NCBI GenBank assembly: GCA_011947345.1
Contig: JAAVTG010000489.1
Location: 1 to 64,000, forward strand
Length of the DNA stretch: 64,000 bases
Direction of reading: 5' to 3'
Source of the DNA: Phytophthora quininea
Taxonomy: Eukaryota; Oomycota; Peronosporomycetes; Peronosporales; Peronosporaceae
The notes beneath the pieces were generated by a model, which searched no databases, was not told the origin of the DNA, and worked only from the letters and a program-made list of their open reading frames with translations. The translations under genes were made by a program, and so were the position numbers. This document shows positions 10,455 to 64,000 of this stretch, piece by piece. How positions within the stretch are numbered: the stretch's first letter is position 1; each line of letters opens with the position of its first letter.

Positions 10455-10486
10455 CTAATAACGCCGTTGGTCGTAGGGTCCACGAG

Positions 10487-10518
<32 letters not shown>

Positions 10519-21415: not shown

Positions 21416-21596
21416 GAAATATAGGTCAGGTCGAACACAATAAGACATGTCAAGTACACGCCGTTGCTTGATGACATAAAATCGAAGTCAACAGGGTCCT
21501 TGACTGGTGGTGGTTAGTACTGCTGCAACTTGCAGTCGGATTCAGGTGAGAGGCTGTCAAACCCTCCTCCATTTCGATATTTGAGGCTTGGTGATC

Positions 21597-36660: not shown

Positions 36661-38807
36661 ATGACTGAAGGAGCTGCGATCCAGACGCTACGTGTGAAGC
36701 CTCAGCATGGCAACCACCTAGAATCGACGCGATCAAACAATTCCAACCGCTCGTCGCGTATGCTGCGGTCCGTGCGGGTCAGTCGCGGCAACCAGTACAT
36801 GGTCGGCAATCGGGCTCGCAGGAAGATCATCTTTTGGCAGATCGTGACAGTCATCCGTCGACTCGTGGTGATTGCTGCTGCCATCCAGTACATCTACATC
36901 TCTTCAGCAGCTACTGTGCGGACGCTGCAGTCTCTGAGTGGCGTGCACAACCCACGCGAGTCGTTTAGAATTTTCACGACGACGCTGATTACCGGCTACA
37001 CTGGCAACGGTCTCATTAAAGACAGCCCCTTGGTGAACAAGGTATTGGGAGGAGACATGACTCCGAGGAACTACTCGATTTTCCTCGAGTCTAAGAACAA
37101 AACGTCGCACACGAACTGCTCGTCCGTGGCGAAGTTTAACCCGGCGATCTACAACTACACCTTTTGACTCACTCCTACAAGGAAATGGTGCAGGACGCGC
37201 AGTACAATTTTACAATTCTCTCGCAATTAGAACTCGTGGCGGCGGTGGTGGACTGCTCATTTACGCAGTTGAAAGCGGGCGACAAAGCGATGGTACGATT
37301 TTTTAACGTAGTACGCTCTCGGAGCGACCCGACCGACCTGTATCTGGTCACCGTGTCGATGAATGTGCAGGAATACGAAATTGCCGAGCACAACAAGAAA
37401 GGCCCCGGTCTTTTGGCGATGCTAACGATCATCCGAGACATGAGCGAAACCAACGTGAAGCAACACACGCTATACGCGACAACGTACCCGTACCAGCGTT
37501 CGATGAGTTTCGAAGCTTGTGAATGGCTTGGTATTACACCCGATAGTTATCTGGAGTTGCGAACAATTCCTCGAGATCCACTCACCCAGCCCCCGAAGCA
37601 CTTGATCACTGCACGAAAGCGAGGCTTCTTCGACGGCGAGGACCAGTCCAATATTCGCTACATGTACTCGATTGTAGGCAACACGAACGCGAAGAATGCA
37701 GTGACGAACTGGGAGTGGCTGGGCGAAGCTGTCATTGCAGACTCGTGGGCGTGGGTTCACGGAATTCACTTGTACTTTGGTCTGCAAACCATCCGATCCC
37801 TCGTCGTGCTTGGCCTCGTCACGTACCAGCAAATTCGTTCTGGTAAAATGTGGATCGGTGACCCCTTTGCGTCAGTCTCCACAGCGGGTCTTTTTATTCG
37901 TGGCATTCTAGTGTGGCTGTCGTGGTATATAGATTCCTTCTGGACACCGTTTGAATTCTCCATGATGGAAGGTGGTTTGATCTCGAAGACGCAAATTGTT
38001 CGCGTTCATGACGAGCTGGAGCATGCAGATGTGCTGTCAGTATTTCTGAGTTTGGTGGGCGTTCTTAGCACTATCATTCGAGAACGGATTGATCCCTCGA
38101 TAGCGATTTTCTCGTTCGAGGCGGTTCATGCACACCGATTGCAAATGGTCAATGAAACTGCAGCAATTCACAACGAAGTTGTGGCGTACTCTAACAGTAT
38201 ATTCTACATCGGTGTTGCACAAATGGCACCTGTCATTACCAAGATGGCACCGCTGCGGTTGTGGACTGATTTCCAAATCCCCAAATCCAAGAGCTCAACG
38301 TTCCTCGCTAATTCCTTCTTCCCCGAGTTCATGCTTTTGGTGAGCGTTGCGGGCTTTGGCGTCCTCCGTAAAATCTACCGCCGTTTTTACCCAGAGAAGA
38401 TTCATACACGATCGAGTATCCAAAGTACCGACCGATCTATGAATGAGAAGACTGCACTGACGATGAAAGGCACCGTCACCAACTTTGAGATTTCTACTGG
38501 AGCTGAACTACAAACGCGCTTTGGGTTGGTATCAGATTATAGCAACTACGTTTACTTCAAGGGCATGAAGTTTGCATCGGCGGATGGCGTCTACTGCTCC
38601 GGGTATGTGATCGTCAACGGGAAGTATCTGGTGAGTTCGAAAGATCTGCTGGCAATCATATTGATCAAGGTCGTGCGCGCTCGCTTCACAAACGTTTACA
38701 TCTACGAGGTGGACGGGAATACGGTCAAGGACACGGCACGTTTGGCGTATCCGACGACCTTTATGTGGTCTGATCTATGGCGCTTAAACATTACCGTGTT
38801 GCTGTAA
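36661..38807 (+). CDS. Array membrane protein 1 (large polytopic family)
   Basis: About 715 residues. A basic N-terminal tail is followed by membrane helix 1 (RRLVVIAAAIQYIYISSAA), then a non-cytosolic region of about 280 residues with NKTSHTNCSS, VVDCSFTQL and several N-glycosylation sites. Helices follow at HGIHLYFGLQTIRSLVVLG, near WLSWYIDSFW, at VLSVFLSLVGVLSTI, IDPSIAIFSFE and FMLLVSVAGFGVLRKIYR. The C-terminal domain has the array signature FEISTGAELQTRFG, SDYSNYVYFKGMKFASADG, GVYCSGYVI, FTNVYIYEVDGNTVKDTARL, ending LNITVLL. The break is at the T-run 37162-37165, where one added T restores NYTFLTHSYKEM. Function unknown; the shape suggests a receptor or transporter-like surface protein. 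Confidence 0.75.
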
Positions 38808-38978
38808 GTTATTCCGCCATGAATCCTGTTTGAATAGACTTAGCTTTTCTATCAGAGTCGACATAACAGACTAACTGCCACGAATCGATAAATAGCGCTC
38901 CAGCAGTTAGTATTTTGGCCGTGGTCACATTATTTATTTTGGCTAAGGAAGCGCCGGCAGCACTGTCGGCCATTCAGC

Positions 38979-41138
38979 ATGACTGCAATCACCGCGATAG
39001 CAAAGATGAGGGTTAAGCCCCTAGCTGGCCAAGTAACCAAGCCATCAGCTCGCTCAGGGCACTCGAGACGATCCAGTATGTCGTATCGGTCTTTTCGGTC
39101 AACAGTCTTCCGGGAGAATAAGTATGTGGTGCGTGGCCTATCCAGTAAGAAAAGCAAACGAGTTTCACTGTGGTCGATGTTCAATGTCGCGCGTCGACTT
39201 GTGGTGATCGCTGCAGCCATCCAGTACATCTACATCTCCATGATAGCAACGTGGCGCACAATGGACGTACTGCGCAGTATTCACAACCCACCGACATCTT
39301 TTGCGGTTTTCACGACATCGCTCATAGCTGGCTATGCCGGTGATGGTTCCATTTACGACAGCCCACTTGTCCAGGATGTCTTGCAAGGCAACACGACTCC
39401 CGAGACTACGCGATTTATCTCGAGTCGGCCAACCAAACTTCGACGGAGAACTGTTCGGCGGTGCCTCTTTCGACCCAGACATTTACAACTACGAATTCCT
39501 GCGTCATGGCTTTGAAGAAATGGCCAACGACTCCCAGTACAATATCGCTTTTCTAGCAGATGTGGAACTTGTCGTGGTGGTGGTGGACTGCACTTTTACT
39601 CAACTGGAAACAGGAGATCCATCCATGGTGCGCGTCTTCAACGTGGTGCGCTCCCTTATCGACCCAACGGATGTCTACTTGATCTCCGTGGCATTGAACG
39701 TCCAAGACTACGAAATTCCTGCGCACAGCAAATCGGGGCCTGCGACTGTCGCCATCCTGACGATCATCCAGGACATGAGCGAGTACAGCGTGGAGCAGTA
39801 CTACTTGGTGGCAATGACATATCCGTACCAACGCTCGTTAGAATTTTTAGTTTTCGAGTTCGTCGAGATCACGGCAGATAGCTTCCTGGAGTTACGCAAC
39901 ATTCCACAAGACCCACTGACTGAGCCAGTAAAACCTTGATCACTGCACGAGAGCGTGGTTTCTACAATGGCGAAGACCAATCCAACATTTGCTACACATA
40001 CTCGCTTCTGAACGCGAACGACGCCAAAAACGCGTTAACCAACTGGGAGTGGCTGGGCGAAGCAGTGATTTCGGACTCGTGGGCTTGGGTGCATGGTATC
40101 CACTTCTTCTTCGGCCTGCAAACCACCTTCTCACTGATCGTGGTCTGCATTGTGGCGTATCAAAACTTCCGTTCTGGAAAAATGTGGATCGGCGACCCGT
40201 TCGCGTTTCTGTCGACTGCGAGTTTGATCTTACGTGGCTGCCTCGTGGTCGTTTCGTGGTATTTGAATTTCTTCTGGACATTGTACGAGTTTGCGATCTC
40301 AAACGCGTCCATTCTTGCCGACGCCGAGCCGGTCCCTGTTCACAAGGAGCTAGTGCATGCGGATGTGCTTGTCGTGTACCTCAGCTTGGTGGGGGTTATC
40401 AGCATTCTTTTTCGCGAACGGATCGACCCGTCCATCGCCATTTTCCTGTTCGAGATCGTCCACAAGCACCGTCTAACCTTCATCCGAGCGGCACCAGCCA
40501 TTTTCAAAGAGGTGACGACGTACGTGGTCAGCTTCTTCGAGCTCGGTATCGCGCCGATGGCCCCCGACGTCGCCGTCATGTCGCCGCTGTGGCTCTGGAC
40601 GGCGTTCCAAATCCCATCAAAGGACGGCGTCTTCCTCGCCGCCTCGTTCTTCCCCAAAGTATTCCTGCTGTCGATGATCGCGTTCTACGCCATCCTGCGC
40701 AAGGTTTATCGCTATTACCACCCCGTCCCGACCTCGCAGCGTGGTAGTCAAGGCAACGGTCTATCGGCGAACGAGAACGAGAACGCTCTGTCGATGAAAG
40801 GCAACCTCACCAACTTTGAGCTCTCGACCGGCGCGGAGCTGCAAAGCCGCTTCGGACTCATCTCGGACTACAGCAACTACGTGTTTTTCAAAGGCATGAA
40901 GTTTGCATCGGCCGACGGCGTCTACTGCTCTGGATACGTGATTGTCAACAAAAAGTTCCTCGTGGGCTCGAAAGATCTGCTGGCGGTGGTGCTGATCAAA
41001 CTTTTCCGCGTTCGACTGACCAATGTGTACGTCTACGATGTGGACGGTAACACGGTGAAGGACACGGCTCGACTGGTGTATCCGCACTCGTTGACGTGGA
41101 CCGACTTGTGGCATCTCAACGTCTCGGTGCTGTTGTAA
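38979..41138 (+). CDS. Array membrane protein 2
   Basis: About 720 residues. Closest in layout to member 1, from which it is separated by only 171 bases in the same direction, so the two look like a tandem duplication. Helix 1 is at RRLVVIAAAIQYIYISMIA; the non-cytosolic region has VVDCTFTQL; WIGDPFAFLSTASLILRG and ERIDPSIAIFLFE mark the membrane core. The C-terminal domain is complete (FFKGMKFASADG, GVYCSGYVI, ending LNVSVLL). Three one-base losses: near 39404 (ACTCCCGAG), near 39465 (CTCTTTCGAC) and at the A-run 39930-39933. Start ATG 38979; the second ATG at 39006 is a possible alternative. Confidence 0.75.
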
Positions 41139-41246
41139 ACACAATCTTATTTCGGTCCAGATGGTTCGACGTCGCTGATTGGCGGAGGGGATTTTTCGAA
41201 TGATTCGGGCGGGCAAAACCTGATTTTTCCGCTGGAATTGTGGGGG

Positions 41247-43203
41247 ATGGAGCAGAGCAAGCGGCAGCCCGAGGAGCACGAGGTGCTGCAGCAGATCCAC
41301 GAGGTCATTTCCGAGAACCCCGACTTCGGCAGCAAGCGCGTGGCCAGCAGCCTCAAGAGCAGCAACCCGCACTGGACCATCGGCGACAAGCGAGGTAGAG
41401 GCCGCAAGCTCTTAGCTATTTATAGACACGCTCTGTTGTGCTCCTCTCCCTTTTGCGGGTTCCTTTCGACTGTGTGCCATTCTCACTTTATCCCGAAATC
41501 TTTTATATGTTTGCAGTGAGCAAACTTCTGAAAAAGTACAAGAGTTCCACCAGCATGAGCTCCGAGGACACGTCGGCCGCCAGTCCGTGGAACGTGGCGC
41601 CGGCCAGCACCAGCCCGCAGACGTCGAGCCCCTGGGCCGTGTCGCCCTTCCAGACCAGCAACCCCTTCAAGAAGAGCCCCGGGACACCGCCCACGGACAG
41701 CGAGCCAGAGCCGGATGTGGTCAACCACGCCGTGATGGAGGAGCTGTCCCCCGCAGGAGGAGGAGACGGTGGTGGCCTCGGCCTTTGAGTCCACGCAGCA
41801 GGAGCAGGTGTCGTCGGCCTGGACGGCAGAGAAGCCCAAGCAGGAGACCCCAGAGCCAGTGAAAGAGGTTGTTGTTGAAGAGCCAAAGGAGGAGACGCAG
41901 GCGAGTCCCTGGATGACAACGCCGGTGGAAGAAGCGACGAGTCCGTGGACTTCAACTCCAGTTGTTGAGAAGGCTGTAGAGCCTGCGAAGGCAGTTGAAG
42001 AGACCAAACCTGTAGTGCAGGAGCCGGAGGAAGTTGTCCATGAAGTTGTGGTCGAGCACTTGGACGAGACGCCGGTTGAGAAGGAGGTGGTCACTGCTGC
42101 TGTGGTTGAGGAGGCGAACGAAGCTGTTGAAGAAGCTCCTGTTAGTCCGTGGACTGCGGCTACGATGCAGGAAGAGGTCGTTGAGATCCCAGCCGTCGTG
42201 GAAGAGACCCCCGCACCTGTAGTTGAAGAGGTTGAAGAGGTTGCTGAAGAGCAACAGGTGTCGGCTCCAATGGAGGTCGAGGAAGCGCCTGTCAAGGAAG
42301 AACCTGTGGAAGCTGCGAGTCCGTGGACGACTGCGCCTGTGGAGGAGCCCCTGTCAGCACACCAGCGAAGGAGGAAGTTGTGGAAGAAGTCCACGAGGAG
42401 CCGCCGACACCTGTTGTTGAAGAGCCTGCTCCAGTGGTCGAGGAGGTTGCTGAAGTTGTTGAAGAGACCCCGTCGTAGAGGAAACTCCAGCAGTTAGCGC
42501 ATGGAACACGACGCCAGTCCAGGACGAAGTGGCAAAGAAGGAGGAGGTCGTTGACATTGCGGTCGCTGTCGAATCGACTCTTGTAAAGGAGACGGTGGTG
42601 GCCGAGGTAGACACGAAAGCGCCAGTCGAAGTGGTGGCCGAGCCAACGACTAGTGCATGGACCACAGCCCCAGTGCAGGAGGTCATTGTGGCTGCTCCCG
42701 TCAAGGAGGAACTCGTAAAGGAAGAGGTCCTTGCCGTCGTTGAAGAAGTTGCAGCCCCCATCGAGCAGGTTGTTGCTGCTGTGGAGACCAAGGTCGAGGA
42801 AGAGGTGCCCGCTCTGTCCTCTGCGTGGAACTCGACGCCTGTGCAGGAAGAAGTAAAGCCTGTTGTTGCTAAGGTTGAGAAGGTGGTGGCGCCCGTGAAG
42901 AAGGAGGTGAAGGTGGTGGAGCCTGTGAAGGAGGTCGTCGTGGAGGAGAAGCAGGTTGCGGTCGAGCAGCCCAAGCAGACGCCCGCGGCTGCTGTCCAGG
43001 AGGTGGTCGTGGCCACGGAGGCCGTCGTAGAGGACGCAAAGCTGGACAAGAAGGCCGTCGCCAACGCCTTCGACGGCGTGGCGAGCTACCAGACCGACAG
43101 TGTGGCGCCAGCGATCAAGAAGGTCCCGAGCGTCGAGGCCCGAGCCGCCAAGGCGACGGACGCTCCTGGCGCCTGCGGAGCCTGCGCCTGTACGATCCAG
43201 TAA
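41247..43203 (+). CDS. SPW-repeat protein with helical N-terminus and CaaX end
   Basis: Exon 1 41247-41394, intron 41395-41516, exon 2 41517-43203; about 612 residues. The first 60 residues form a compact basic helical domain (EVLQQIHEVISENPDFGSKR, NPHWTIGDKRVSKLLKKYK) of a kind I associate with oomycete regulatory proteins. The rest is a long Glu/Val/Pro-rich disordered chain punctuated by about ten SPW or SAW motifs (SPWNVAP, SPWMTTPVEE, SPWTTAPVEE, SAWNTTPVQD). The C-terminus is GACGACACTIQ: the last four residues form a CaaX box (CTIQ), with upstream cysteines available for palmitoylation, so membrane anchoring of a long flexible tether is likely. Frame breaks near 41758, 42350 and 42470. 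No known family. Confidence 0.72.
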
Positions 43204-43460
43204 GTCTGCTCGGTTGGTTAGTTGTGCATATCGTCCCTTGTCGCAGTAGGAGGCCTGGTGTCATCATCATTGTACGTGGGGCAAGGAGAGTTGATTCTTG
43301 TGGTTTGCACAATTTGAGTCAGAAAAGTGATTTACGACAAATGTAGCCACCTTCTGGATTCATGATTCCAGCTCGACAGCAAGATAAGATATCTTTTTTC
43401 ATTCCCAGATTCGCCTCGGACGGCACAGACAGCCCAGTACCGTAACCAGCCTCAATCGCC

Positions 43461-43849
43461 ATGTCGGACTCTCCGTGGAACGCCAACCCCGTGCCCGGCC
43501 AGGAGCCGCCCAAGCCAAGCCAGCGCAGCAGCAGCACCACCACGCGTCGGCCCCCAAGGAGGAGGAGCACGTGGTGTGGAACGCCGCGCCGAAGCCCAAC
43601 GCCAGCACGGGCGAGAAGCTCAAGGACAAGACGCGCCACGCCGTGGAAGACGTCAAGGACAAGGCCGCCAAGGTGACGAGCACCATCGAGGGCTACAAGA
43701 ACGACAGCGTGGCCAAGGTGAAGAAGGTGAAGGAAGAGCACAAGGTGGCCAAGGAGGACAAGAAGAAGCAGGAGAAGCAGGCCAAGAAGGACAAGAAGCA
43801 CGAGGAGTCGGCCGGCGCCTGCGGCCTGTGCGGCTGCACCGTCATGTAA
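43461..43849 (+). CDS. Short SPW-motif protein with CaaX end
   Basis: About 129 residues after one repair near 43505. It starts MSDSPWNANPVPGQ, has a second W motif (VVWNAAPKP), a Lys/Glu-rich amphipathic helix of about 60 residues (KVTSTIEGYKNDSVAKVKKV) and ends SAGACGLCGCTVM, a CaaX box (CTVM) with adjacent cysteines. It shares both the N-terminal SPW motif and the C-terminal lipidation cassette with the larger protein immediately upstream (257 bases away, same strand), so the two probably derive from one ancestor and may act at the same membrane. Antisense frames here are GC-rich shadows. Confidence 0.72.
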
Positions 43850-44033
43850 GACATGGCCACACTGCGAGTCAGTCAGTCCTCTCTGGCTGGATCTATTTCT
43901 TTTGCAGAAGATCTGGACGTGTCTTTAAAGACTACGTAGCTTCCCGACCAGATCGTCGCTCCTTCGACGTTGCCATTAACCAACATGCCGTGGATTGCAA
44001 GTGTTTATTAAGGAGAGTTGTGTTGCTGCTTGT

Positions 44034-45078
44034 TCATTCTTGTAGGAGAAGCGCGTGCGAGTGGCCAGCCGATACCTTATCCACTCGACCGTCGACGTCA
44101 TTTGCGGCTGGCTGTTGCCCCCACCACTGGACGGATCCGTCTCGACACAAGCCCAACGTGAAGCGCGCGCCACAAGCGACCTGCTCGACGTCCTGGATGT
44201 CTTCGGCACGGGCTGATTCAGTCACGACACGTGGGAGCACTTGGGTGCTGGAGCTGTAGCCCAACTGGCCATCTCGGCCCCAGCCCCACGTGTACAAGTC
44301 GCCCGAAGCAGTCAGCGCTGCCGTGTGCCAGTTGCCGCATGCGGCCTGGACGATGTTGCTGTCGAGCCCTTGCAGAGCGTCGACTAGTGTCGGAGCGTGT
44401 TCGTCTTGTGTGCTGCCATGGCCGAGCTGGTTGTACAGTCCCCAGCCAAACGTGAAGAGGCCGCCCGACCTCGACACGACCGCCGAGTGGCCAAAACCCG
44501 CAGCGATTTGCTCTACGTATACACGCGACGGCAACGCGACGGGGGTTGGAACGTGGCGACAGCGATCCGCTTCTGGTCCGAGACCCAACTGGCCGTAGTC
44601 GTTGCTGCCCCAGGACCAAGCTCGACCAGTCGAGTCAACCGCCAACGAGTGCATTCCCCAGCAGCGACTGCAGTGATCGTCACACTCGTCGGGAACTGGA
44701 CGACCGTCGGAACTCGAACGATTTCCCCACGTGCTGCAGTCGCCACCTGACCAAATCGGTTCCAGCCCCACACCAAGACCCGTCCCGAATACATCACTGC
44801 TAGTACGTGGTTACACCCGCAAGCTACGTAGCTGCATTTCTCGGGAAGCTCGATCTGAGCGCAGGACGAAGCGTCGAGCTCAGCCAACTCGCCGTAAAGG
44901 CGCGTCCCCACCCAACCACGTCGCCGCTGTCGAGTACGCCGATGGAGAAGCCATCTCCTCCGTCGACAGCTTTGAGCTTGCGTCCTGGTGGGGAGTACAC
45001 TCGTTGAATAAGCCGCCGCTGCGGAGCGGGATACAGACGCACTCCATTCAGTCGATTTGGAGTGCAGCAACAGTCCAA
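44034..45078 (-). CDS. RCC1-repeat (beta-propeller) protein, two frame breaks
   Basis: About 348 residues. RCC1 repeats are clear: VLVWGWNRFGQV, AWSWGSNDYGQLGLG, LFTFGWGLYNQLGHG, LYTWGWGRDGQLGYSSS, with linking GxxHSA/T motifs (AAGFGHSAVVS, ACGNWHTAALT, SAGHSHALLLQE). At least five blades can be counted. Breaks near 44905 and near 44660 are each repaired by one added base. No ATG is in frame at the 5' end (the frame opens at a TTG near 45078), so either a short first exon or another lost base is missing. RCC1-type propellers act as exchange factors or protein-interaction platforms; there is no evidence here for a specific GTPase partner. Confidence 0.72.
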
Positions 45079-45125
45079 ACGTATTGATCCAAGGCGTGTA
45101 TTGAAAGGGGGGGATACTTGCTATC

Positions 45126-47209
45126 TTACAGCAGCACGGTGACGTTGAGCCGCCACAAATCGGACCAAGTCAAAGTCCCCGGGAACACTAACCTAGCCGT
45201 CTCCTTGACCGAGTAGCCGTCTACCTCGTACGCGTAGACGTTCTTGAAGCGCACCCGCAGGATCTTCATGAAGGCGATGACTGGCAAGTCTTTGGTGCTC
45301 ACCAGCAATTTCCCGTTCACAATGACGTATCCGGAGCAGTAGACGCCGTCGGCGGACGCGAACTTCATGCCTTTGAAGTAGACGTAGTTGCTGTAGTCCG
45401 AGATGAGGCCGAAGCGCGTCTGCAACTCCGCTCCAGTGGAGATCTCGAAGCGAGTGATGATGTCAGTGGGGTCGACGTTTCCGACGAAGACGAATTGCTG
45501 ATGGTCGTGGGATGGTTTCGCTGCTGGGACTTGTCCGGGTAGTAGCTCCGGTAGATCTTGTGCAGGATCGTGTAACCTGCGACGACGGCCAAGAGCACGG
45601 CTTTGGGGAAGAAGGACATGATGAGGAACTTGGCGTTTCTCGGGGGCAGTTGGTAAGTCGTCCAGAACCGGAGTGGGGTCATATTAGCGATCGTAGAAGT
45701 CACATCCACCACTCCCTGAAAATATTGGGCGTTTGAATACGTGACGATCTCGTTGAGCACGGCGGGCGAGGATTTCACGATGGCCAAACGGTGGCTGTGG
45801 ATGATCTCGAAGAGGGCGATGGCGACCGAAGGATCGATTCTCTCGCGTAGGACTGCACTGAGAAGTCCCACGACTCCGAGATACACGTCCTGGATATCGG
45901 CGTGCAGCATTTGCTGGTGGATTTGGATGTTCTGCGTGCCTGTAGCGGCGGCGGAGAAGGAAAGAGCGTACTCATTGATCATCCAGAAGGAATTCACGGC
46001 CATCGATATCACCACCAGAGCGCCTCGCATCACCAACGTCGCTGTCGACATGGACGCGAACGGGTCCCCGACCCAAAGCTTTCCAGAGCGGCCCTTCTGG
46101 TACGTCACGAGGATCAAAACGACGATATAGTAGATGGTCTGCAGAGCGAATACGAGGTGGACGCCGTGGGCCCAAGCGTACGAGTCAAAGCTCACGGTCT
46201 CGCCAACCCATTCCCAGTACGTCAACGTGCGTTTAGCGTCGCTCGTGTCCTGCACCGTGTGCATGCAGCGCACATTTGCTTGCTCCTGGCCGTTGTAAAA
46301 TCCACGCTCTCGACCGACTACCAAGTTCTTGACGGGCTGGTCGGACGTGTCAGCGATGATACTGCGGAGCTCCAGCAAGTTATGGTCGGTAATTCCTACC
46401 GACTCGTACAGTTCGAACTCCATGTCGCGCTGGTACGGATACCGCAGCGCCATGAGGTAGAACTGCTCTGCAACACCTTTACTCATGTCTTTGACGATGT
46501 TCATCGTTGCCAAAGCGCCCGGTCCACGACGTTTGTGGTCGTGAATCTCGTAGTTTTGGACGTTGAGCGACATCATGACCAGGGATAAGTCGCTGGGGTC
46601 GTCACGTGAGCGCACCAAGTTGTACGCTCGGACTCCAGACGGGTCTCCTTTCACGAGCTGACTGAAGCTGCAGTCGACCACGACTGCGACCGGTTCCAAG
46701 TTGCCGAGCGTCGAGATGTTGCTGTTCTGGATGCCTCGCACCATCTCGTCGTAGGCGAGACCCAAGAAGGTGTTGTTATAGATGTCAGGGTTGAACAGCG
46801 GCGTGTCGGAGCAGTTAGTGGTGGACGTTTTTGTGCCACTCTCAAGGTAGATAGCAAAGTCCCTCGGCGTGGAGTCGCCGGCCAGCACGTTTTGTACCAG
46901 TGGACTGTTGTTGATGAGCCCAGTCCCCATGTAGTCGGCGATGAGTGGGGACGAGAACACTTTAAGCGTCTCGGTTGGGTTCGGAGTCGCCATGAGCACG
47001 ATGTAGGCGAAGTACGAAGCGGACAGAGAGACTTGGATGTACCGGATGGCAGCGGCGATGACCAAAACCCGACGGAAGACGTTGAAGAACGGCCAGAACT
47101 CGAACTTCTTGTGCGATTTCCGGTGCTTGGAATGTTGCGGCTCATGTGGACCGACCGACATCATCGACCGGGCTGGGGGCCCCTTAGTTTGGGGTTGGAC
47201 CCGAGCCAT
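45126..47209 (-). CDS. Array membrane protein 3
   Basis: About 694 residues. Helix 1 near residues 45-75 (FRRVLVIAAAIRYIQVSLSA); non-cytosolic region with TNCSDTPLFNPDIYNNTF and VVVDCSFSQLVKGDPSG; membrane core with WVGDPFASMSTATLVMRG, LGVVGLLSAVLRERIDPSV and FFPKAVLLAVVAGYTILHKI. The C-terminal domain carries GVYCSGYVI and ends LNVTVLL. A single break near 45478 (GAAACGTCGACCCC) is repaired by one base and joins VDPTDIITRFEIST to the last 100 residues. First of four consecutive leftward members (3 to 6). The basic N-terminal tail keeps the N-terminus cytosolic by the positive-inside rule. Confidence 0.77.
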
Positions 47210-47437
47210 GGTCGCTGCTAGAAATGAACGAAGCTATTCGCCAGGGAAGGAATCGCGGTCCGCCCTGCCGTGTCGAGATGAACCGATGTGGTAATTCAAC
47301 GCACTGCCAAGACGTTTTGGCGTTTGTCGGCAGCAAGAATAGTTTGCCTTCGAGCTTTATTTGCAGATGCGAAGGATCAGGGGTGTCCTGCGATGTACAT
47401 GGATTCAAAGACGGCGGCAACGTGTTACGTTTCGCTG

Positions 47438-49541: not shown

Positions 49542-49751
49542 CGTGAATACGTTAAACCTCACACCAAACTTTTCTCTTGATGAAACCTCGGAAAAGGTCA
49601 AATGCAAGACGGGAACTGGGGTCCTTCTTCGGTGTCTGCTCGACAATATAAGGCGCTGGTCTATTTTGTTGCGGGGTGAGTTGAAACCACAGAGAACTGT
49701 TGCGTTTTCCGTCGCATGCTTTACCAACTATCGTGTCGCCGACGATAGAAT

Positions 49752-51846: not shown

Positions 51847-52299
51847 TTCCGGTACTTGGAAGAGCTTGAGCTTGCAGTCGATGTGTTGGAATTGGCAATG
51901 AAAGCGATTAACGAGATGTTAACGCTTGACTCTGAGCCAGCTAAGAACTTGAATTGGTGTGAAGGCTTCCATCAAGGCGAGGCAGTCGCTTGAAACCTCT
52001 GTGCTGCACGACAACTCGGTCGATCAATATTGCAGTCGACAGGAACGAGGGCGAGTTCTAATGCGAGCACATCTGGTCGGTCGGAAGAGAACCCGTACTT
52101 GTGACAAAGTACTACTTGTCAACGGCATGAACCGCTTGGGAAGTTTATTGGTCCTCTGTCTTTGCCGCAACAATAAGAATAGGAAAGCCTGGTCTGGTCA
52201 AGATGGAAATTAACGCGATCTGAGCGAACACTGCCTTTGCGAGGATCCTCGTTCCTCAGGACGCGAGCAGTTTGACGAGGGATTATCATATTATTGGGT
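51847..52299. other. Intergenic between array members 5 and 6
   Basis: 453 bases; no gene supported. Contains the promoter of member 5 and the terminator of member 6. Confidence 0.45.
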
Positions 52300-54392: not shown

Positions 54393-54638
54393 TTTCGATG
54401 TTTGTCTGCGAAGTGACCACGTTTAAACGTCTGCTTACGGCTCCGTTCGCGATAAAAGCTCATGCCAGCAGGAATAGCCATCCTACTTTCGTTAACCCGA
54501 CCATACTTTTTGTCACGCAGTCGCGGGGAAGTTAGAAACGGACGACTTGTCATATCCCCGAGAGTTTTTGCAGTCACCACAAGCTCTTGGTCTTTGAAGG
54601 GTCCACGTACTACGTACTCGTTAGAAGACCACGGTGTC

Positions 54639-56687
54639 ATGACGGCGGGTCCTGATGGGAAAGTCTTAACCGAGCAGTCTGGCGGTCCTCAACTCCAGAG
54701 CAGGACGCCGATGGGTCGAGCGTTCCGGCTCGTCCATCGAGTTTTTGTGTTTGGCGCCGCAGTTTGGTACGTGGTGATCTCGTTGATGGCCACCGACGCA
54801 TCGCTGAAGATCCTCAGAGACCAAGAGCGCTTCGACAGCGGAGCGATCCCATTCGAGTCGCCGTTAATTGCTGGATACGTTGGTACTGACTCGATCCGCA
54901 AGAGTTCGCTGGTCGTGACTGCTCTTGGAGACTCGACCGCGCCGCGTAATGGCACGTTGTATCTGGAATCGGCTTCAAGCTCGTCGTTCAACCAATGTAC
55001 CGCGGTGGTGCAAAGCGACTCGGCAGGGATCTACACGGACACTTTTCTGCGTTGGATCTGGAACGACTTGCAGGACAAAGTCGCATACAACATCACGCTG
55101 ATGAACGACGTGGAGCTGGTCGTTCCGGTCGTCGACTGCGGCTTCGAAGGCCTCGTTGAAGCGGGTGCTGCCGCCGCACGGATCAACTACCTCGTGCGCT
55201 ACAAGAACGACACGGACCGAGTGTTGATTCTACCAACCTCGATGGGAGTTCAGGACTACTACATCGGCGACCAATATGAGAGCGGATCGGCGCTTTTGTT
55301 GGTCTTCTCGGCCATCGAAACGCTGGCATCTTCTGACCCAGTTCCGCACTACTTTGCGTTGGCTTTGGACTACCCGTACGAGTACAAACCCGACTTTGAA
55401 GTGTGCACATTCTTCAACTACACGAGCGCGGGCTTCTGGTCGTTGCAGACCATTCCGCGTGACTCGTTTCTAAGACCGCCGAAGCCCGTGCTGACAGCGA
55501 GACAATTGGGGTTTTATCTGGACAAGGAGACGTCGCAAGTGAACCAAATCAATTTCCACTGGTGGCTAACGGAGGACGCGGCAACTGAGCTGTCCACCTG
55601 GACCTGGCACGGCAACGCCGTGATCCGAGACAACTGGGCGTGGGTGCACATGATCCACCTGCTCTTCGCTATCGACGTCATATTCCAGCTCTGTCTGCTG
55701 CTGTTCTTGGTGTACCGCAGCATGTTGCTCATGAGGTTCTGGATCGGCGACGCGTTCGCCTCCATCTCCAACGCGCTGCTGTATCGAGGCATCTACGTGA
55801 TTATCTCGAACCACATTAACGGGTACTGGACTCTGACCGAGTTCAGTCTGGCGTTGGCCGACGGTCTCGGCGGGGAGTCACACGTCATGTATCGTCCGGA
55901 AATGGCCCACGCCGACATGTTAACCATCTACTTCAACCTCGTGAGCTTGCTGAGCTACATGTTCCGAGAGAAAGTAGACCCGATTTTCGTCATGGTCTGC
56001 TTCGAGGTGGGTTTCTACTGCCGCAAAGGGTTGGCAGCGATGATCCCGGCGTTGAAACGTGCCCTTATCAACTACTCAAATGTGGAGAGCGATTACGGAC
56101 GGGTGGCAGTGAGCGACTTCCTGTCCAAACTGTCTCCGATGCGGCTCTGGACCGTGCATCCGGTCCACCAGAATGTTTGGCCGCTGCTGGTCAATACGTT
56201 TATGGTCATCTACAGCACGTTGATCGTCATCGTGCTGTACATGGTCATTCGGAAGCTGCTTAAATGCAGACACCCGGAGCAAGTAGGCAGTCAAAACTCG
56301 AAGAAGCGGCAAAACTCCGGGCTGTTTAACCGAGACTCGGAACCGCGGGAGCTCATGCAGTTCGAGACAGCCACGGGTTCCGTGCTCAAGAACCGCTTTG
56401 GTATCATCTCGACGTACGAGAACTACACGATCAAGAACGGCCAGCGGTTCACGTCAGGTGACGCCATTTACTGCAACGGCTTCGTGGTGGCCAACGACAA
56501 GTTTGTGATTTCGACCGAGGACTTGATGTCGCTCATTGCCATGAAGATCACCCGTGCGAGGTTTGTCAATATCTACGTGTACACATTAAAGAACGGCACA
56601 GACGTTAACCAGACGGCTCGGTTGGTGTACCCGGGGACGATCTCCTGGCACGACCTCGCCAAACTAGCAGTCAGTCACCTCGGCTAG
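54639..56687 (+). CDS. Array membrane protein 7 (intact, second sub-type)
   Basis: 682 residues from the ATG at 54639, or 741 from an in-frame ATG at 54462; the shorter form matches the tail length of the relatives. No frame break. Helix 1 FGAAVWYVVISLMA; ectodomain with FNQCTAVVQSD, VVPVVDCGFEGL and many N-glycosylation sites (NGT, NIT, NDT, NYT); core FWIGDAFASISNALLYRG, YFNLVSLLSYMFREKVDP and TLIVIVLYMVIRKLL. The C-terminal domain is a diverged form (FETATGSVLKNRFGIIS, ENYTIKNGQRFTSGDAIYCN, FVNIYVYTLKNG). It shares the LLYRG and ATG(S/A) variants with members 9 and 10. Divergent from member 6; starts are 69 or 246 bases apart. Confidence 0.8.
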   Translation: MTAGPDGKVLTEQSGGPQLQSRTPMGRAFRLVHRVFVFGAAVWYVVISLMATDASLKILRDQERFDSGAIPFESPLIAGYVGTDSIRKSSLVVTALGDSTAPRNGTLYLESASSSSFNQCTAVVQSDSAGIYTDTFLRWIWNDLQDKVAYNITLMNDVELVVPVVDCGFEGLVEAGAAAARINYLVRYKNDTDRVLILPTSMGVQDYYIGDQYESGSALLLVFSAIETLASSDPVPHYFALALDYPYEYKPDFEVCTFFNYTSAGFWSLQTIPRDSFLRPPKPVLTARQLGFYLDKETSQVNQINFHWWLTEDAATELSTWTWHGNAVIRDNWAWVHMIHLLFAIDVIFQLCLLLFLVYRSMLLMRFWIGDAFASISNALLYRGIYVIISNHINGYWTLTEFSLALADGLGGESHVMYRPEMAHADMLTIYFNLVSLLSYMFREKVDPIFVMVCFEVGFYCRKGLAAMIPALKRALINYSNVESDYGRVAVSDFLSKLSPMRLWTVHPVHQNVWPLLVNTFMVIYSTLIVIVLYMVIRKLLKCRHPEQVGSQNSKKRQNSGLFNRDSEPRELMQFETATGSVLKNRFGIISTYENYTIKNGQRFTSGDAIYCNGFVVANDKFVISTEDLMSLIAMKITRARFVNIYVYTLKNGTDVNQTARLVYPGTISWHDLAKLAVSHLG

Positions 56688-56726
56688 TGATGCATCAAGT
56701 CTATTAGCTTTTTAAAACACCCCCTC

Positions 56727-58818
56727 CTAGGCAAGAATGTTAATGTTGAGGTGGGTGAAGTCGTTCCAGGTGAAAGTGTTGGGATACACGAGTCTGGCCG
56801 TGCGTTGCACCGTGTAGGCGTCCACTTCGTAAGCGTATACGTTGATGAAGCGCGTCTGTACGGCTTTGATCATGGCGATCGTTAGCAAGTCCTCGGTCGC
56901 GACCAAGAACTTGCCGTTGATGATCACGTAGCCCGAGCAGTAAACTCCGTCGGGCGATGCGAACTTGAGACCTTTGAAAAGACATAGTTCTTGTAGTCGG
57001 AGATAAGACCGAAGCGAGCTTGTAACTCGGCGCCCGTAGAGATCTCGAAGTTGGTCAGGTTGCCTTTCTGCGCTGTCGCTGCCCGCTCGTTGGTCGATCG
57101 CTCAGCGCTGCTCCTGCCGGTGAGACTTGGCGCCAAAGCGTCCGGATAGAAGCGCTTGTAGGTTTTGCGGACCACCACAAACAAGCAGAGCGTCCCCATT
57201 AAGATGTACTTGGGGTAGAACGACGCGACCACGAACTGGTTGTCGACACCGGCGAGTTTGTCGGTCGTCCACAACCGCATGGGGGACATTTCCTGTTGCA
57301 GGGCAGTGACCGTGGCGATTCCTTGCCGATACTCCATATTTGAGAATTTTGCCACGATCTTCAACACCCCCGGCGCCATCTTGACGATCGGCTGACGGTT
57401 ATCGTGGATGGCCTCATAGAGGAACACCCCGATGGTGGGGTCGATCCGTTCCTTGGTAATGTGGCCGACAACGCCAAACAAGGCGAGGAACATGACCATC
57501 AAGTCGGCGTGGACGATCTCCGAGTGGATCGGAACCAATTGTGTGCCCGTGAGATCGTTGGCGTTGGAGAGACAAAACTCGAGCAACGTCCACTCGCCGT
57601 TGACGTACCACGATGCAAACACCAGCAGTCCACGCAACATGAGTGTGCTGTTCGACAGCGCCGCAAACGCGTCTCCAATCCACACTTTTCCTTCGAGGAC
57701 GTTGCGGTAAACGATGACGGCAAGAACTCCCAGGGAGAAGAGCGTCTGCACGGTAAAGATGAGGTGAATACCGTGCACCCAAGCCCACGAGTCGAGGATG
57801 ACCGGCTGGCCGCGCCATGCCCATTCGGACATGGCCGTCGCCGGACTTGAGCGCTCCACCGTCCACACCAAATTGCGGATATTCGACTGCTCCGTTTCAG
57901 CGCCAAGGTAGAAGCCACGTCTCCGTGCTGTTAGAACAGTCTTCACGGGGTTTTCGACAACGTCTTCCGGGATACTCGTGAGGTTCCAGTAGCCGCTGGC
58001 CGACGTGCCTTCCAGCGAGTAGACCTCGAACAACGGGTCGTGCGTGAAGGCGTAGTCCAGGCCAATAACGACGTACTGCTCCACTGTGGTCTCGCGCATG
58101 TCGGCGACCGTGAACAAGGTCGTAACCTGGGCAGGTCCGTATCGATTCGCCTCCGGGATGCGGTAGTCTTGCAGTGACACGGACGTGGTGACGAGCTCGA
58201 TTTGACTGGGGTCGCTCTTGTGACGCACCAGGTTGAACACCCGTAGCAGTGACGGGTCTGCATCTACCAGTGGCGGCGTTGTGCAGTCGATGACAGGGGC
58301 AATCAGCTCCAAGTCGCTCAGCTGCGTCAAGTTGTAGGAACTCTTGGCAATGAGCGTCTCGAAGTTCGACCGCAGGAATGAGTTGCTGTAGATGTTGGCG
58401 TCGAACAATTCCACGTGGCTGCAGTTGACGAATGACGTGGTGTTGGCCGATTCTAGAAAGACCGGGTAGTCACGTGGGGTGGTGTCACCGCCGAGAACCG
58501 AGTGCACCAGCGCACTGTCCGCAATCGCGGCTTGGCCGAGATACCCGAGGATCAGCTCGGACTCCATAGTCCCGAACGATCTGGAAGCGATGGGGTGCCT
58601 CCCAGGACTTGGAACGTGACGAACGTGGCTCGTTGGTAGTTGGTCAGACACATGAGAGCGGCTCCCACGCCCGTGACTCGGCGGACAAGGTTGAAAAGCT
58701 GCACTCGAGTGACCCGCTTCTTCTTGATGCGTTGACCGCCGCTATTTGTCCGGTCAGTTGAGATGCCCGACGTCATGGCACTTTTGTTGGGCGACACTTG
58801 CGCGTTCGGTTGCCCCAT
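56727..58818 (-). CDS. Array membrane protein 8 (third sub-type)
   Basis: About 697 residues after two repairs. Start at 58818 (MGQPNAQVSPNKS). Helix 1 near VTGVGAALMCLTNYQRAT is weaker than in the relatives. Ectodomain NTTSFVNCSHVELFDANIYS and APVIDCTTPPLVDADPS; core WIGDAFAALSNSTLMLRG, MFLALFGVVGHITKERIDPT, YILMGTLCLFVVVRKTYKRF; C-terminal domain FEISTGAELQARFG, SGYVIINGKFL, ending LNINILA. Breaks near 58575 and at the T-run near 56978 (VFFKG to VFSKV). The ending NINILA is shared with the partial member 11. Convergent with member 7, 39 bases between stops. Confidence 0.75.
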
Positions 58819-59094
58819 GGTGGAGGTCACTTGGCTGCTGGACGGGCTAAAGGGGAATGCAGTGTGTGACCAAGGAATTCCGAGTGCTTCAGACCAGAAC
58901 TCGGTGTCTCGAAGCCCCAAATAGTTGTTACTGCAATCTCAATCTGCCTCGAGTCATGACACGGAGGGCTCGAATTAGAACCATCATACAAGAAACGTCG
59001 ACACAAGAGCCTATTTCCTCAATCAACCTGTCGATCAAATATTCATCGCATAAGAAAATGTCCGTCTGGCTGACTAGCCTGGCCGAAATGCCTC

Positions 59095-61229
59095 TCAGCA
59101 CAGCACCGACACGTCAAGACGCGCCAGATCCGACCACGTCAGAGTCGTCGGGTATACGAGTCTCGAGGTTTCTTTGACCGCGCATCCCTTGATGATCTCA
59201 TAGACGTAAATGTTGGTGAATCGGACACGCGTCAGTTTCATCAGCACCAACGGGATCAAATCTTGCGTGGCCACCAAAACTTGCCGTTCACGACCAGGAA
59301 GCCGTTCCCGTAGACGGCGTCGATGGTCGCGAGCAGCTGGTTGTCTTGCATAATGTAATTTTCGTAGCCTGCGATGATCCCGTAGCGTTTCCGCAATGCC
59401 GAGCCCGTGGCGGCCTCAAACGACGTCAAATCGATCTGCTGGGAGTCCACTTTGTATGCACTTGGCCGTCGGCCGTTCATCCCATCGCTGTGGTGTTCGT
59501 ACCGAGCGATTTTCTGGGCCACGATGTACGCCATGACGAGCACGATGGGGCTGAAGATCGCCAGCGAGATCGAAGCAACGACCGGCATGCGATCGATACG
59601 AAGTCCGTACGCAGTCAGGAGCTTCATGGGCGACAGTTTGTCGAGCCCGGGGCTAATGTTCAGAAGTCCTCGCGTCGTGTCGACTATGGCGAAATTGGTG
59701 ATGTTGTCCCTGAGTGTCGGGAACAGACTCGCCAACGCCACGCGGTAGCCCCAGCCGAGCTCAAACGTGCCGAACGCCAGCAACGGGTCGATGCGTTCGC
59801 GGGTCAAGTAGCTCAAGAGGGCGACGATGTTCAAGTAGATCGACAGCAGATCGGCTTGCACGAGCTCCGGCTTGTAAAAGATAACGTGCAGACCCGTGAC
59901 TGAGTCGCCGATAGAGATCGTCATCTTGGTGATGGTCCAGAAGCCGTTCAACTGCATGCATATGAGCACCACCACACCACGATATAGCAGCAGGTTGGAG
60001 ATACCGGAGAACGCATCACCCACCCAGATGTGGCCCTGGCAAAGCCGACGGTAGATCACGAATGCTAGCACGGTCAAGTGGAAGATGACACCAAGCGCGA
60101 AAAAGCCGTGAATAGCATGTGCCCAAGCCCATGAGTCATGGAGCACAGCGCGACTGTACCATCGCCACTCTTGCAGCTCTTCCAACGGGGTTTTGGGGAT
60201 ATCCCAATGCGCCGTCTCGATGTTGGACTGAGCGGTGGGGTCATTCAAGTAGCGACCAAATCGACGAGCCATGCGGATGACCTTCGCTGGATCGTTATTA
60301 CGCTCGTTCGGCATCACCTTGAGCATCCAGTAGTTGTCTTCGTTGATGCCTTCGAGCTCCGCGTACTCGAAGACCGGTTCGGACACGTACGGGTAATTCA
60401 AAGCGACAGCAACATGGTGGACGAGATTGGTAGCCTGGAGATCGTCAATAGCAGCGACCATCACCACCAACCCCGCACCTTTCTGGAACTGCTGGTCCAC
60501 AGCGTAGTCTTGGATGGAGAGTGAGGTTGACAGTAGAAACACTTTTGTGGGGTCGCTCTTTTGTCGTGTGAGATAAAACACTCGAGCGATGGTACGGTCT
60601 CCCGAAATGAGCAAGTCGAACACGCAGTCGACGACGGGGACGATCAGCTCCAAGTCCTGGACATAGCTGAGGTTGTACGATGCGTACGTCTGCAGACTCG
60701 AGAATATGGAGCGTAGATATTCGTTACTGTAAATGTCGGCGTCGAAGCTCGACACGTCCGAGCAGCCCGTGAACGACTGCGCTGTGGCCGTCTCGAGATA
60801 CAAAGAATCGTTGCGTGGGGTGGTCGATCCTGCGAGCACGTTCTTCACCAAGTGACTGTCTTGGATTGTTGTGGTGCCCACGTAGCCACCGATGAGCTTG
60901 GACATGTGAGTTTCAATCGGGAGATCGTGCGACACGACCCCGCGTAGCACTAGTATTGCCGTCGAGAACGACTGCAGTGAGATCATGACATACATGACCG
61001 CAGCCACGAACACGGCAGTGCGGTACAACACAAACCCGACTGTGGCCGTTGAAAGACGCTCGTTTGGTTGGACAAACATCTCCATTGGCGATGGTGGAGT
61101 CCCCAAACCGATCTGCGACGGGATCGTCGTCGAGTCCCCGTCTTGCTCCACGTCTTGTTCGCTTTCGTCGTCGATGGGAACGTCCTCCATCTGCACGTCA
61201 TTTCTCGAGATGCTTTTCAGCGATTTCAT
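59095..61229 (-). CDS. Array membrane protein 9 (second sub-type)
   Basis: About 711 residues. ATG at 61229 (MKSLKSISRND); a TTG-led extension is ignored. A long acidic N-terminal tail (DESEQDVEQDGD) distinguishes it. Helix 1 VFVAAVMYVMISLQS; ectodomain FTGCSDVSSFDADIYSNEYL and VVDCVFDLL; core WVGDAFSGISNLLLYRG, YLNIVALLSYLTRERIDPLL; C-terminal FEAATGSALRKRYGIIAGYE, ending LDVSVLC. Single break near 59277: the T-run in AAGTTTTGG has lost one T, splitting NGKFLVATQDL. Very similar to member 10 in the ectodomain (SLQTYASYNLSYV is shared). Confidence 0.78.
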
Positions 61230-61504
61230 CCGGCCGATTGAGTTACTAAGTGTTGCGAGTTCCGAGGAGCGATAAGACACAGCGTGGGCAGAGCTCGTCC
61301 CCAAGAACGGAGGAGAGGTTTTGGTGTATTTGCGGAGAAAACAAATCGGTCTCGGGGCATAACTGCCGATGAGCTTCGAACGACGTATAACAAGACACCT
61401 TTCACTGCTATCTTATCGCGTCCATGAAGATACGTGTCAAAATGCAAAGCTTACGTGTTTTTCCATTAGCATTATTTACTGCTCGCAAAGGCGGGAAGCA
61501 TTTC

Positions 61505-63766
61505 TTATGGCAGCGTGGAGACGTCGAGGTTTCGTAGGTCGGTCCACGATATGGTGGTTGGATACACCAGTTGAGCAGTCTGGTTGACTCCGTCCTTGAT
61601 GATCTCGTAGACGAAGATGTTGGTGAAGCGGATTCGCGTCACCTTCATCAAAAGCAGCGGCAGTAAGTCCTGAGCACCGACTAGAAATTTCCCGTTCACA
61701 ACAAGGAATCCGTTGCTATACACGGCGTCGATCGTCGCCATCGTGCGCGTGCCATTCGCCACGTAGTTGTCGTAGCCTGAAACAACTCCAAACCGCTTGC
61801 TCAGTGCTGCTCCCGTTGCCACTTCGAACGTAGTGAGTTGCTCCGGATCGGTCTGCGCTGCATCTTTCAAGTACGTCGTGGACGTACGGCGACCCACCCT
61901 GATGCCCCCACCGTCTGAAAACTCAATGTACCGGATCGCTTTTCGGGCGATAATGTACGCAACGACAGCAAGTATTGGGGTGAAGATGGACACCACCACA
62001 GAGAACACGACCGGTCTTCGGTTCGCCCCCAGTCCATACGCTGTCAATAGATCCATCGGCGAGAGGTTGCCCAAGCCGGAACTCACTTCCAGAAGCCCCG
62101 ACGTCGCGTCTCTGATGGCAAAGTTTGCGATGTGAGTCCTCAGCGACGGGTACAACTGCGCCAGCTCGACTCGGTGGTTCCAGCCCAACTCGAACGTACA
62201 GAACGTCACTAATGGGTCCAATCGCTCTCGAAACAAGTAGCTGAGTACGCTAACGATATTCAAATACAATGCCAGCAGATCTGCGTGCACGAGCTCAGGC
62301 TTGTAGTAGATGGTGTAGCTCTTAGAGATTGTATCTCCGATGGCAATGCTCATTTTCGTGATGGTCCAGTATCCGTTCAAGTGGTTGCATACGAGCACGA
62401 TCACGCCGCGGTACAGCAGCAAGTTGGAGATTGTGGCGAACGCGTCGCCCACCCAGAAGTGACCCATTCGCAGACGTCGGTAGATAACAAACGCCAAGAC
62501 GAGCAAATTGAAGATGACGCTCGCCGCGAACAAGCCGTGGATGGCATGCGTCCAGGCCCACGTGTCGTGCAGCACGGTCCTGCCTTTCCACCGCCACTCG
62601 CTCACCTCCATCGCCGGCGTATTCGGCAGGTCCCAGTGGGCGATTTCGATGTTGGACTGCGAGGTCGGATCGCTCAAGTACCGACCAAAGCGACGTGCCA
62701 TCCGAACGTCCTTGGCCGGGTCTTGATTCTGTTCGTTCGCGAGAGTTTTCAGCAGCCAAAAGTTGTCCTTGTCAGTGCCCTCGAGCTCCGAGTACTCGAA
62801 GACCGGCTCGATGACGTACGGGTAGTTGAAGGCGACGGCCATGTGGTGATTTAAACCCGTTGTGTTCATGTCCTCGATGGCCGCAACCTTGAGAATCACC
62901 GCGGACCCTCGTTGAAATTGCTCGTCGGTCATGTAGTCCTGGGCCGATAATGACGTTGATAGCAGCAACACCTTTGACGAATTGGTTGCTTGTCGAGTCA
63001 AGTAGTACACCCGCACAAGTGTGGTGTCACCCGACACGAGATAATCGAACGTGCAGTCCACAACGGGTGCGATTAATTCCAACTCTTTAACGTAGCTGAG
63101 GTTGTACGACGCATACGTTTGTAGTCTTGAAAAGATGTACCGTAAGTAGTTGTTGCCGTACATTTCAGTGTCGAAGTTCGATACACCCCAGCAGCCAACG
63201 TTCGAGTGCACCCACGGCGTGACGAGATAGATGGTGTCGTTGCGAGTACTGGAGTCGCCTTTGAGAACTTGCTGGATCAATGGCCCGTCAAGAATTGTGG
63301 TCGTACCAGCATAGCCAGCCATGAGTTTGGTCGTGTGGATTTGGAGCGGTAGGTCGTGCGACACTGAGTTTTCCAGGATCTTGACTGCCGTCGAGAACGA
63401 ATGGAGCGAAATCTCCACATACCACACGGCGACCCCAAATACTGCTAGACGGTGGAGTAGCCGAAGGAAGCGCAAGATCGAAGCGCTTTGAGACGTCTTC
63501 AAGAAGTTGTTGTTGCTGTCCAGAGCGCGATGAGAGGAGCTGAGACTGCTATTTGACGGCGGGTCGGTGGCGAGGTCAGCAAACTTTTCCATCTTGACCG
63601 ATGGCTCGCGTATTGAGAACTGAGGTGGATGCAAAGTTGTCGCTGTTTTCCTCACTTCTGAGCTAACTCCAAATCTTAGACACGAATTAATAGCATGTTG
63701 CCGTCTGCATAAGAACTGCTGTGTCGACATTGCAAAGTTAGCCCTTCCACATTTCTTGTCGGACAT
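61505..63766 (-). CDS. Array membrane protein 10 (intact, second sub-type)
   Basis: 753 residues from the ATG at 63766; an alternative start at 63592 (MEKFADLATD) gives 695 residues, nearer to the family norm. No frame break. Helix 1 VFGVAVWYVEISLHS; ectodomain with NVGCWGVSNFDTEMYGNNYL, NLSYVKELELIAPVVDCTFD and several N-glycosylation sites; core WVGDAFATISNLLLYRGVIV, YLNIVSVLSYLFRERLDP, FTPILAVVAYIIARKAIRYI; C-terminal FEVATGAALSKRFGVVSGYD, NGFLVVNGKFLV, FTNIFVYEIIKDG, ending LDVSTLP. With member 7 it proves that the family is maintained as full-length proteins. Confidence 0.82.
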   Translation of the reverse strand: MSDKKCGRANFAMSTQQFLCRRQHAINSCLRFGVSSEVRKTATTLHPPQFSIREPSVKMEKFADLATDPPSNSSLSSSHRALDSNNNFLKTSQSASILRFLRLLHRLAVFGVAVWYVEISLHSFSTAVKILENSVSHDLPLQIHTTKLMAGYAGTTTILDGPLIQQVLKGDSSTRNDTIYLVTPWVHSNVGCWGVSNFDTEMYGNNYLRYIFSRLQTYASYNLSYVKELELIAPVVDCTFDYLVSGDTTLVRVYYLTRQATNSSKVLLLSTSLSAQDYMTDEQFQRGSAVILKVAAIEDMNTTGLNHHMAVAFNYPYVIEPVFEYSELEGTDKDNFWLLKTLANEQNQDPAKDVRMARRFGRYLSDPTSQSNIEIAHWDLPNTPAMEVSEWRWKGRTVLHDTWAWTHAIHGLFAASVIFNLLVLAFVIYRRLRMGHFWVGDAFATISNLLLYRGVIVLVCNHLNGYWTITKMSIAIGDTISKSYTIYYKPELVHADLLALYLNIVSVLSYLFRERLDPLVTFCTFELGWNHRVELAQLYPSLRTHIANFAIRDATSGLLEVSSGLGNLSPMDLLTAYGLGANRRPVVFSVVVSIFTPILAVVAYIIARKAIRYIEFSDGGGIRVGRRTSTTYLKDAAQTDPEQLTTFEVATGAALSKRFGVVSGYDNYVANGTRTMATIDAVYSNGFLVVNGKFLVGAQDLLPLLLMKVTRIRFTNIFVYEIIKDGVNQTAQLVYPTTISWTDLRNLDVSTLP

Positions 63767-63835
63767 GTTTATTGTCGTCGAATAGTTTATGGACTCTATC
63801 TCTATGGGTGGACATCGACGAATGAACTATGCAGT

Positions 63836-64000
63836 CTATGCAAGGATGTTAATGTTGAGGAAGACCAGGTCCTGCCAAGTCAGCGTCTCTGGGTATACCA
63901 ATCGAGCTGTCCGCTGGACAGTGTTGCCTTCCACTTCGTACACGTACACGTTCGTGAATCGTGACCGGAAGGCCTTGATCATAATGATGGACAGCAAGTC
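63836..64000 (-). CDS. Array membrane protein 11, C-terminal end only
   Basis: The last 54 codons of another member enter from the right edge: DLLSIIMIKAFRSRFTNVYV, YEVEGNTVQRTARLVYPETL and the end LNINILA, stop at 63836-63838. The NINILA ending and VQRTARLVYP match member 8, so it belongs to the third sub-type. It shows that the array continues beyond the window. Confidence 0.8.
   Translation of the reverse strand, partial: DLLSIIMIKAFRSRFTNVYVYEVEGNTVQRTARLVYPETLTWQDLVFLNINILA

Follow-up and report, generated by a model that had tools for sequence, protein, structure and literature searches.

The known polycystin and TRPML channels are built from a first helix (S1), a large non-cytosolic domain and the helices S2-S6. 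The oomycete PKDRR proteins (PMC7399828) were included among these systems for comparison. We analyzed bases 1-64,000 (the window) of the 106-kb contig C473 (JAAVTG010000489.1) in the 87.2-Mb assembly of Phytophthora quininea, which comprises 993 contigs. The window carries an array of related genes for membrane proteins, termed family A. According to hydropathy and the helices of an AlphaFold2 model, these proteins have the same S1, large non-cytosolic domain, S2-S6 and presumably cytosolic ends as the channels, but neither a sequence match nor a convincing fold match to them was found, and the PKD_channel matches of the genome are located elsewhere. What family A does have in common with another group of proteins is its C-terminal domain, which recurs in a larger and divergent family B.

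The array and its members

A profile hidden Markov model (HMM) of family A, built from 81 aligned sequences and run on all six-frame pieces, finds ten members between 36.76 and 64.0 kb of the window, together with the C-terminal end of one more. Three of them lie on the forward strand and eight on the reverse strand, in the order M1, M2 (+), M3-M6 (−), M7 (+), M8-M10 (−) and the end of M11 (−) (Table 1). This is in agreement with an initial annotation of the stretch, which had described ten full and one partial related genes on both strands that continue past the window. M11 and M12 extend the array to about 68.1 kb of the contig, leading to 12 members on it. The "at least three" sub-types of that annotation become four if identity on the profile columns is regarded: I (M1-M6), II (M8, M11), III (M9, M10, M12 and the member on contig C693) and IV (M7). 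The array itself stands but not as an uninterrupted run, as two unrelated genes split M2 from M3, one for an acidic repeat protein (approximately 41.2-43.2 kb, read by eye) and one for an RCC1-repeat protein (approximately 44.0-45.0 kb). The former (41200-43200, forward strand) is a Val/Glu-rich protein with repeated SPWTT-like units and is itself spread over several frames.

Elsewhere in the genome, family A occurs at C854:1-4,315 and on contigs C693 and C290. The region C854:1-4,808 is a 99.7% copy of the window from 36.8 to 41.6 kb, containing M1 and M2, and the end of C290 is a 99.6% copy of the place on C693; the assembly contains duplicate or haplotype contigs. Once near-identical copies were merged, 13 distinct genes were found, the thirteenth off contig C473, and the counts from this genome search are lower bounds.

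Table 1. Positions of the family A genes, of the parts of M7 and of the interrupting genes, counted from the first base of the window.
Feature	Position	Strand	Remarks
M1 (sub-type I)	36661..38807	+	two frame pieces, jump near 37.16 kb
M2 (sub-type I)	38979..41138	+	four frame pieces; jumps near 39.40, 39.47 and 39.93 kb
Acidic repeat protein and RCC1-repeat protein	41200..45000	.	not of the family; interrupt the array
M3 (sub-type I)	45126..47209	-	two frame pieces
M4 (sub-type I)	47438..49541	-	three frame pieces; C-terminal part common to M5 and M6 by conversion
M5 (sub-type I)	49752..51846	-	five frame pieces
M6 (sub-type I)	52300..54392	-	long frame and short N-terminal piece; start read by eye
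M7 (sub-type IV)	54639..56687	+	one open frame, 682 residues from likely start; AlphaFold2 model
M7 ectodomain, residues 61-333	54819..55637	+	cysteines C120 and C167; sequon N151
M7 helices 2-6, residues 334-544	55638..56270	+	site of conserved polar/aromatic positions
M7 C-terminal domain (predicted cytosolic), residues 574-682	56358..56684	+	homologous to family B C-terminal domain
M8 (sub-type II)	56727..58800	-	three frame pieces; N-terminal start not fixed
M9 (sub-type III)	59098..61304	-	two frame pieces
M10 (sub-type III)	61505..63766	-	one open frame
M11 (sub-type II), C-terminal end	63836..64000	-	runs on to about 65.86 kb of C473
M12 (sub-type III)	after M11, to about 68.1 kb of C473

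Domain organization of the proteins

Both hydropathy and the AlphaFold2 model of M7 reproduce the annotated layout of one helix, an ectodomain, about five more helices and a C-terminal domain, with an ectodomain of approximately 270 instead of about 280 residues. The model (682 residues, 81 sequences) reaches a predicted local distance difference test (pLDDT) of 91.1 and a predicted template modelling score (pTM) of 0.87. It contains helix 1 (residues 24-59), a β-rich domain (64-331), the later helices 334-363, 374-393, 397-410 (short), 420-442, 448-485 (in three pieces) and 513-544, and a small α/β domain (574-674). The density of Lys and Arg is high ahead of helix 1 and past the last helix, and both ends of the protein are taken as cytosolic because of it.

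The NC and DC cysteines noted in the initial annotation are present in all 119 sequences with more than 600 of the 688 profile columns filled, and these two invariant residues of the ectodomain likely form a disulphide. The claimed non-cytosolic position of the ectodomain is supported by the charge pattern of the protein and by its N-glycosylation sequons, of which 254 were observed compared to 152.7 expected by shuffling; the sequon column N151 is kept in 88% of the rows. No excess was found in the N-terminal tail (8 vs 14.4 expected), the S3-S4 loop (11 vs 23.1) or the S5-S6 loop (14 vs 20.6). For the C-terminal domain, pLDDT is mostly 85-96 within the whole protein (with one block of 71) and has a mean of 67.7 if the domain is modelled alone. 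This drop fits a domain that would dock on the helix bundle.

That the proteins belong to no recognised family, as initially annotated, is borne out by the searches. Pfam gave no match of weight for four frames and 18 aligned members, the best being DUF6377 in one of the 18 (E 0.0076), and a sequence search of the PDB gave isolated weak scores only. NCBIfam gave no match either, which is weak evidence as it covers prokaryotes. The PDB fold searches returned no convincing match for family A; the search with the isolated C-terminal domain was weak, given the pLDDT of its model.

Relation to families B and C

A search of the own genome with the C-terminal domain alone turns up, below family A, a pair of twin loci with weak matches (E 0.22 and 0.46) that represent a second family, B (reference L036). 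In turn, 45 matches are listed for the C-terminal piece of family B: 37 of family B itself including the query, on 16 contigs, seven of family A (E 0.048-0.90) and one that is unclear (C90). Some of the 37 are two pieces of one gene or lie on twin contigs, so that the number of genes is smaller. Contigs C643, C517, C586 and C764 carry several matches each of this family (L036, L050-L065).

Profile comparisons in both directions connect the two C-terminal domains. With the HMM of the family B domain, 91 of the 149 family A proteins collected from databases outscore the best of 3,129 decoys; these matches start at a median of 85% of the protein length with a lowest value of 36%, so that some may lie outside the C-terminal domain. 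In the reverse direction, the family A HMM scores 14 out of 27 family B pieces above each of 20,640 shuffles and 1,005 other frames. A profile-profile comparison of the C-terminal domains scores 31.5, compared to a mean of 12.8 in 60 shuffles (standard deviation 3.0, maximum 28.2) and 13.0 for the reversed profile. Because this domain is common to A and B, we propose that both form one superfamily: the family A domain is homologous to that of the larger family B and marks an uncharacterised superfamily.

The layout is similar as well, as families B (L036, L050) and C (L066, see below) show a helix, a long ectodomain, a helical part and a C-terminal domain. Family B, which has no Pfam match, consists of one N-terminal helix, an ectodomain of about 340 residues, a hydrophobic part whose helix count is not settled, and the C-terminal domain. 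It differs from family A in the length of its ectodomain, and profile-profile scores for helices and ectodomain are not above column shuffles in either region.

A third small family, C, is represented by an open frame of 852 residues (L066) with matches on C443, C419, C586, C267 and C316. None of the matches in its search is to family A or B at E 0.01, and in a search with the family A HMM it comes out lower than shuffles. By profile it is related to family B, with 18.3 bits compared to at most 4.1 in 500 shuffles, and its hydropathy predicts one helix, about 320 residues, five more peaks and two weaker peaks in the C-terminal part. We regard it as possible, if somewhat doubtful, that A, B and C all branch from a single oomycete six-helix superfamily with an unsolved fold, a new transport or sensing class with several dozen genes per genome. 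As part of the same tentative reading, the superfamily could have gone unnoticed since its members are annotated just as "transmembrane" or "hypothetical".

Relatives in other species

The relatives found in many species, with E values down to 0, make the family more than a chance grouping. Three protein searches gave 23, 113 and 15 matches, corresponding to the 149 distinct family A proteins. Every relative with a listed organism comes from Phytophthora, Nothophytophthora, Plasmopara, Pythium or Globisporangium, and the others carry no organism. Pythium oligandrum is among the species that possess the family. While one must keep in mind that each search scored only some 8,000 candidates with short words in common, and that distant relatives, including those of Saprolegnia and Albugo, could be missed, family A appears to be one of Peronosporales and Pythiales among the named relatives found.

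Database entries from these genera, labelled "transmembrane" or "hypothetical" (in Phytophthora, for example, PITG_07343, PITG_07344 and F441_17556), belong to the same family and by tree distance contain close counterparts of M7, M8, M11 and M12; as listed, their records hold no family name or function. One relative (P0042) is labelled "Ankyrin-1", which is probably a misnomer. On a tree of helices 2-6 built with FastTree, M4-M7 have their closest database neighbours in Phytophthora kernoviae, and M7, M8, M11 and M12 stand beside proteins of other species by distance (branch support was not inspected). These distances suggest that the tandemly duplicated family is old. Serial loci of Nothophytophthora are of sub-type I (BBJ28_00010779), M7-like (10780) and of sub-type II (10781), and PITG_07343 and PITG_07344 are M7-like and M8-like. 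Judged by locus names rather than DNA, the succession of sub-type I, M7 and sub-type II seems to be conserved.

Conservation and gene conversion

The paralogues were compared in 22 within-sub-type pairs, for which M2, M4, M6 and M8 were each used without one of their short frame pieces. In 21 of the pairs, with M9-M10 as the exception, conservation is highest in the C-terminal domain, as was expected from the initial annotation. The accompanying claim that the ectodomains diverge most holds less well within the array, where the ectodomain is least conserved in only 10 of the 22 pairs (with two ties at printed precision) and helices 2-6 diverge about equally. A wider comparison of 162 sequences gave 7,417 pairs with enough coverage, of which 7,381 have their highest identity in the C-terminal domain and 4,184 an ectodomain identity below that of helices 2-6, the pairs not being independent. 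The latter relation was also seen in hand-picked orthologue sets with enough coverage, namely in 43 out of 66 pairs for M7, 36 out of 36 for M8, 10 out of 10 for M11 and 3 out of 3 for M12.

In the pairs of M4, M5 and M6 the synonymous divergence (dS) of the C-terminal domain is 0.12-0.28, compared to at least 1.57 or saturation in the ectodomain and helices 2-6, and nucleotide identity climbs where the C-terminal domain begins, with the steepest rise in M4-M5. The low value and the rise at the domain border show that the C-terminal parts of M4-M6 were homogenised by gene conversion. For the other 12 sub-type I pairs, C-terminal nonsynonymous divergence (dN) of 0.09-0.17 at a dS of at least 0.94 indicates purifying selection on the domain.

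Pure membrane anchors seldom retain conserved polar or charged residues in their helices. In family A, a list of polar, aromatic, Gly and Pro positions of the membrane helices, which does not cover hydrophobic letters, contains fifteen that are kept in at least 90% of the rows with letters: R34, W335, H337, H340, S377, R383, G384, W397, E401, H424, D426, P448, E456, R462 and K539. According to the AlphaFold2 topology some of them are mid-helix (R383, E456), and several are near the non-cytosolic ends (H337, H340, H424, D426, E401).

Frame breaks

M7 and M10 are the sole single open frames among the ten members, and the other eight consist of two to five frame pieces each; the ten genes initially called full are thus present, but eight of them are broken by frame jumps. 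A check by a second copy is possible for M1-M2 alone. Here, window and C854 copy differ by four substitutions and nine gapped bases, seven of which are in or beside base runs of at least three. Out of eight breaks, two (near 37.16 and 39.47 kb) are common to both copies; of the rest, two are confined to the window and four to C854. Many broken frames are also seen in family B loci. Because of these and the copy-specific breaks, the data suggest that the M1-M2 breaks are mostly assembly indels rather than decay, with the two common breaks least secure. Broken frames in eight of the ten members and two breaks present in both assembled copies could also be read as a decaying pseudogene array. We consider this very improbable, as the six further breaks each appear in one of two 99.7% identical copies, most of them at short base runs, the frames of M7 and M10 are open, many species have long annotated relatives and dN is below dS in the measured pairs.

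Possible function

The structure and the presence of family A are well supported, its mechanism is not. We tentatively favor a channel- or transporter-like protein over a pure receptor because His, Asp, Glu and Arg residues are conserved within the helix bundle. The bundle would then be the working part, with a pathway lined by these residues. The glycosylated, β-rich and likely disulphide-bonded ectodomain could sense or admit a ligand or ion, the C-terminal domain could dock beneath the bundle and act in regulation or assembly, and the paralogues might differ in ligand or stage of use. Several observations weigh against this proposal. No pore or transport motif was recognised and no transporter or channel profile matched, and family B shows no evident conservation of the polar helix residues. 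The S3-S4 and S5-S6 loops are modelled as non-cytosolic and show no sequon excess, while the C-terminal region, taken as cytosolic, has a mild one (123 vs 99.7 expected). The low pLDDT of the isolated C-terminal domain may result from its smaller alignment instead of lost docking.

The next candidate, which we regard as rather unlikely, is a surface receptor whose ectodomain binds differing ligands and whose constant C-terminal domain signals, similar to the receptor families to which the proteins were initially compared. The constancy of the C-terminal domain, the sequon-rich ectodomain, the number of paralogues and the lower conservation of the ectodomain relative to helices 2-6 in most orthologue pairs are arguments for it. 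The analogy of varying outside and constant inside is nevertheless weak, as among the paralogues helices 2-6 vary about as much as the ectodomain, part of the C-terminal identity is explained by the conversion of M4-M6, many of the best-kept polar residues are in the membrane, and sequence searches of Pfam and the PDB reveal no known signalling domain in the C-terminus. The shared layout would also allow a far-diverged cation channel of the polycystin/TRPML type. This is improbable, since PF08016 (PKD_channel) is absent from the Pfam scans of the four frames and 18 members, none of its 50 matches in the genome is on C473, C854, C693 or at the listed family B places, and TRPML2 compares with a TM-score of 0.11 and a Z far below trust level over an aligned chain stretch of only 286-403. 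Equally improbable is an intramembrane enzyme, for which H337, H340, H424, D426 and E401, on the non-cytosolic side by model topology, could provide the His/Asp/Glu set, but no known enzyme motif or Pfam match was found.

Other features of the window

A second tandem array, on the forward strand at 19981-27992, comprises five open frames matching Abhydrolase_3 (alpha/beta hydrolase, steryl acetyl hydrolase-like), some of them over part of the domain. The reverse strand encodes a protein with a Gar1/Naf1 RNA-binding region and a TGC repeat of about 14 units (10445-12373), and a FYVE-like zinc finger (16716-17489) with E 0.0025, under the Pfam cut-off.

Implications

A family, and probably a superfamily, of membrane proteins emerges from the analysis, and the searches made gave it no named relative outside Peronosporales and Pythiales. 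We regard the link to family B as the most interesting result, and the sharing of the C-terminal domain is new here. The array also represents a clear case of gene conversion largely confined to one domain. If the proteins are transporters or sensors, they would be candidate explanations for oomycete-specific physiology, and if they are truly restricted to this lineage, they could represent possible targets for selective control.

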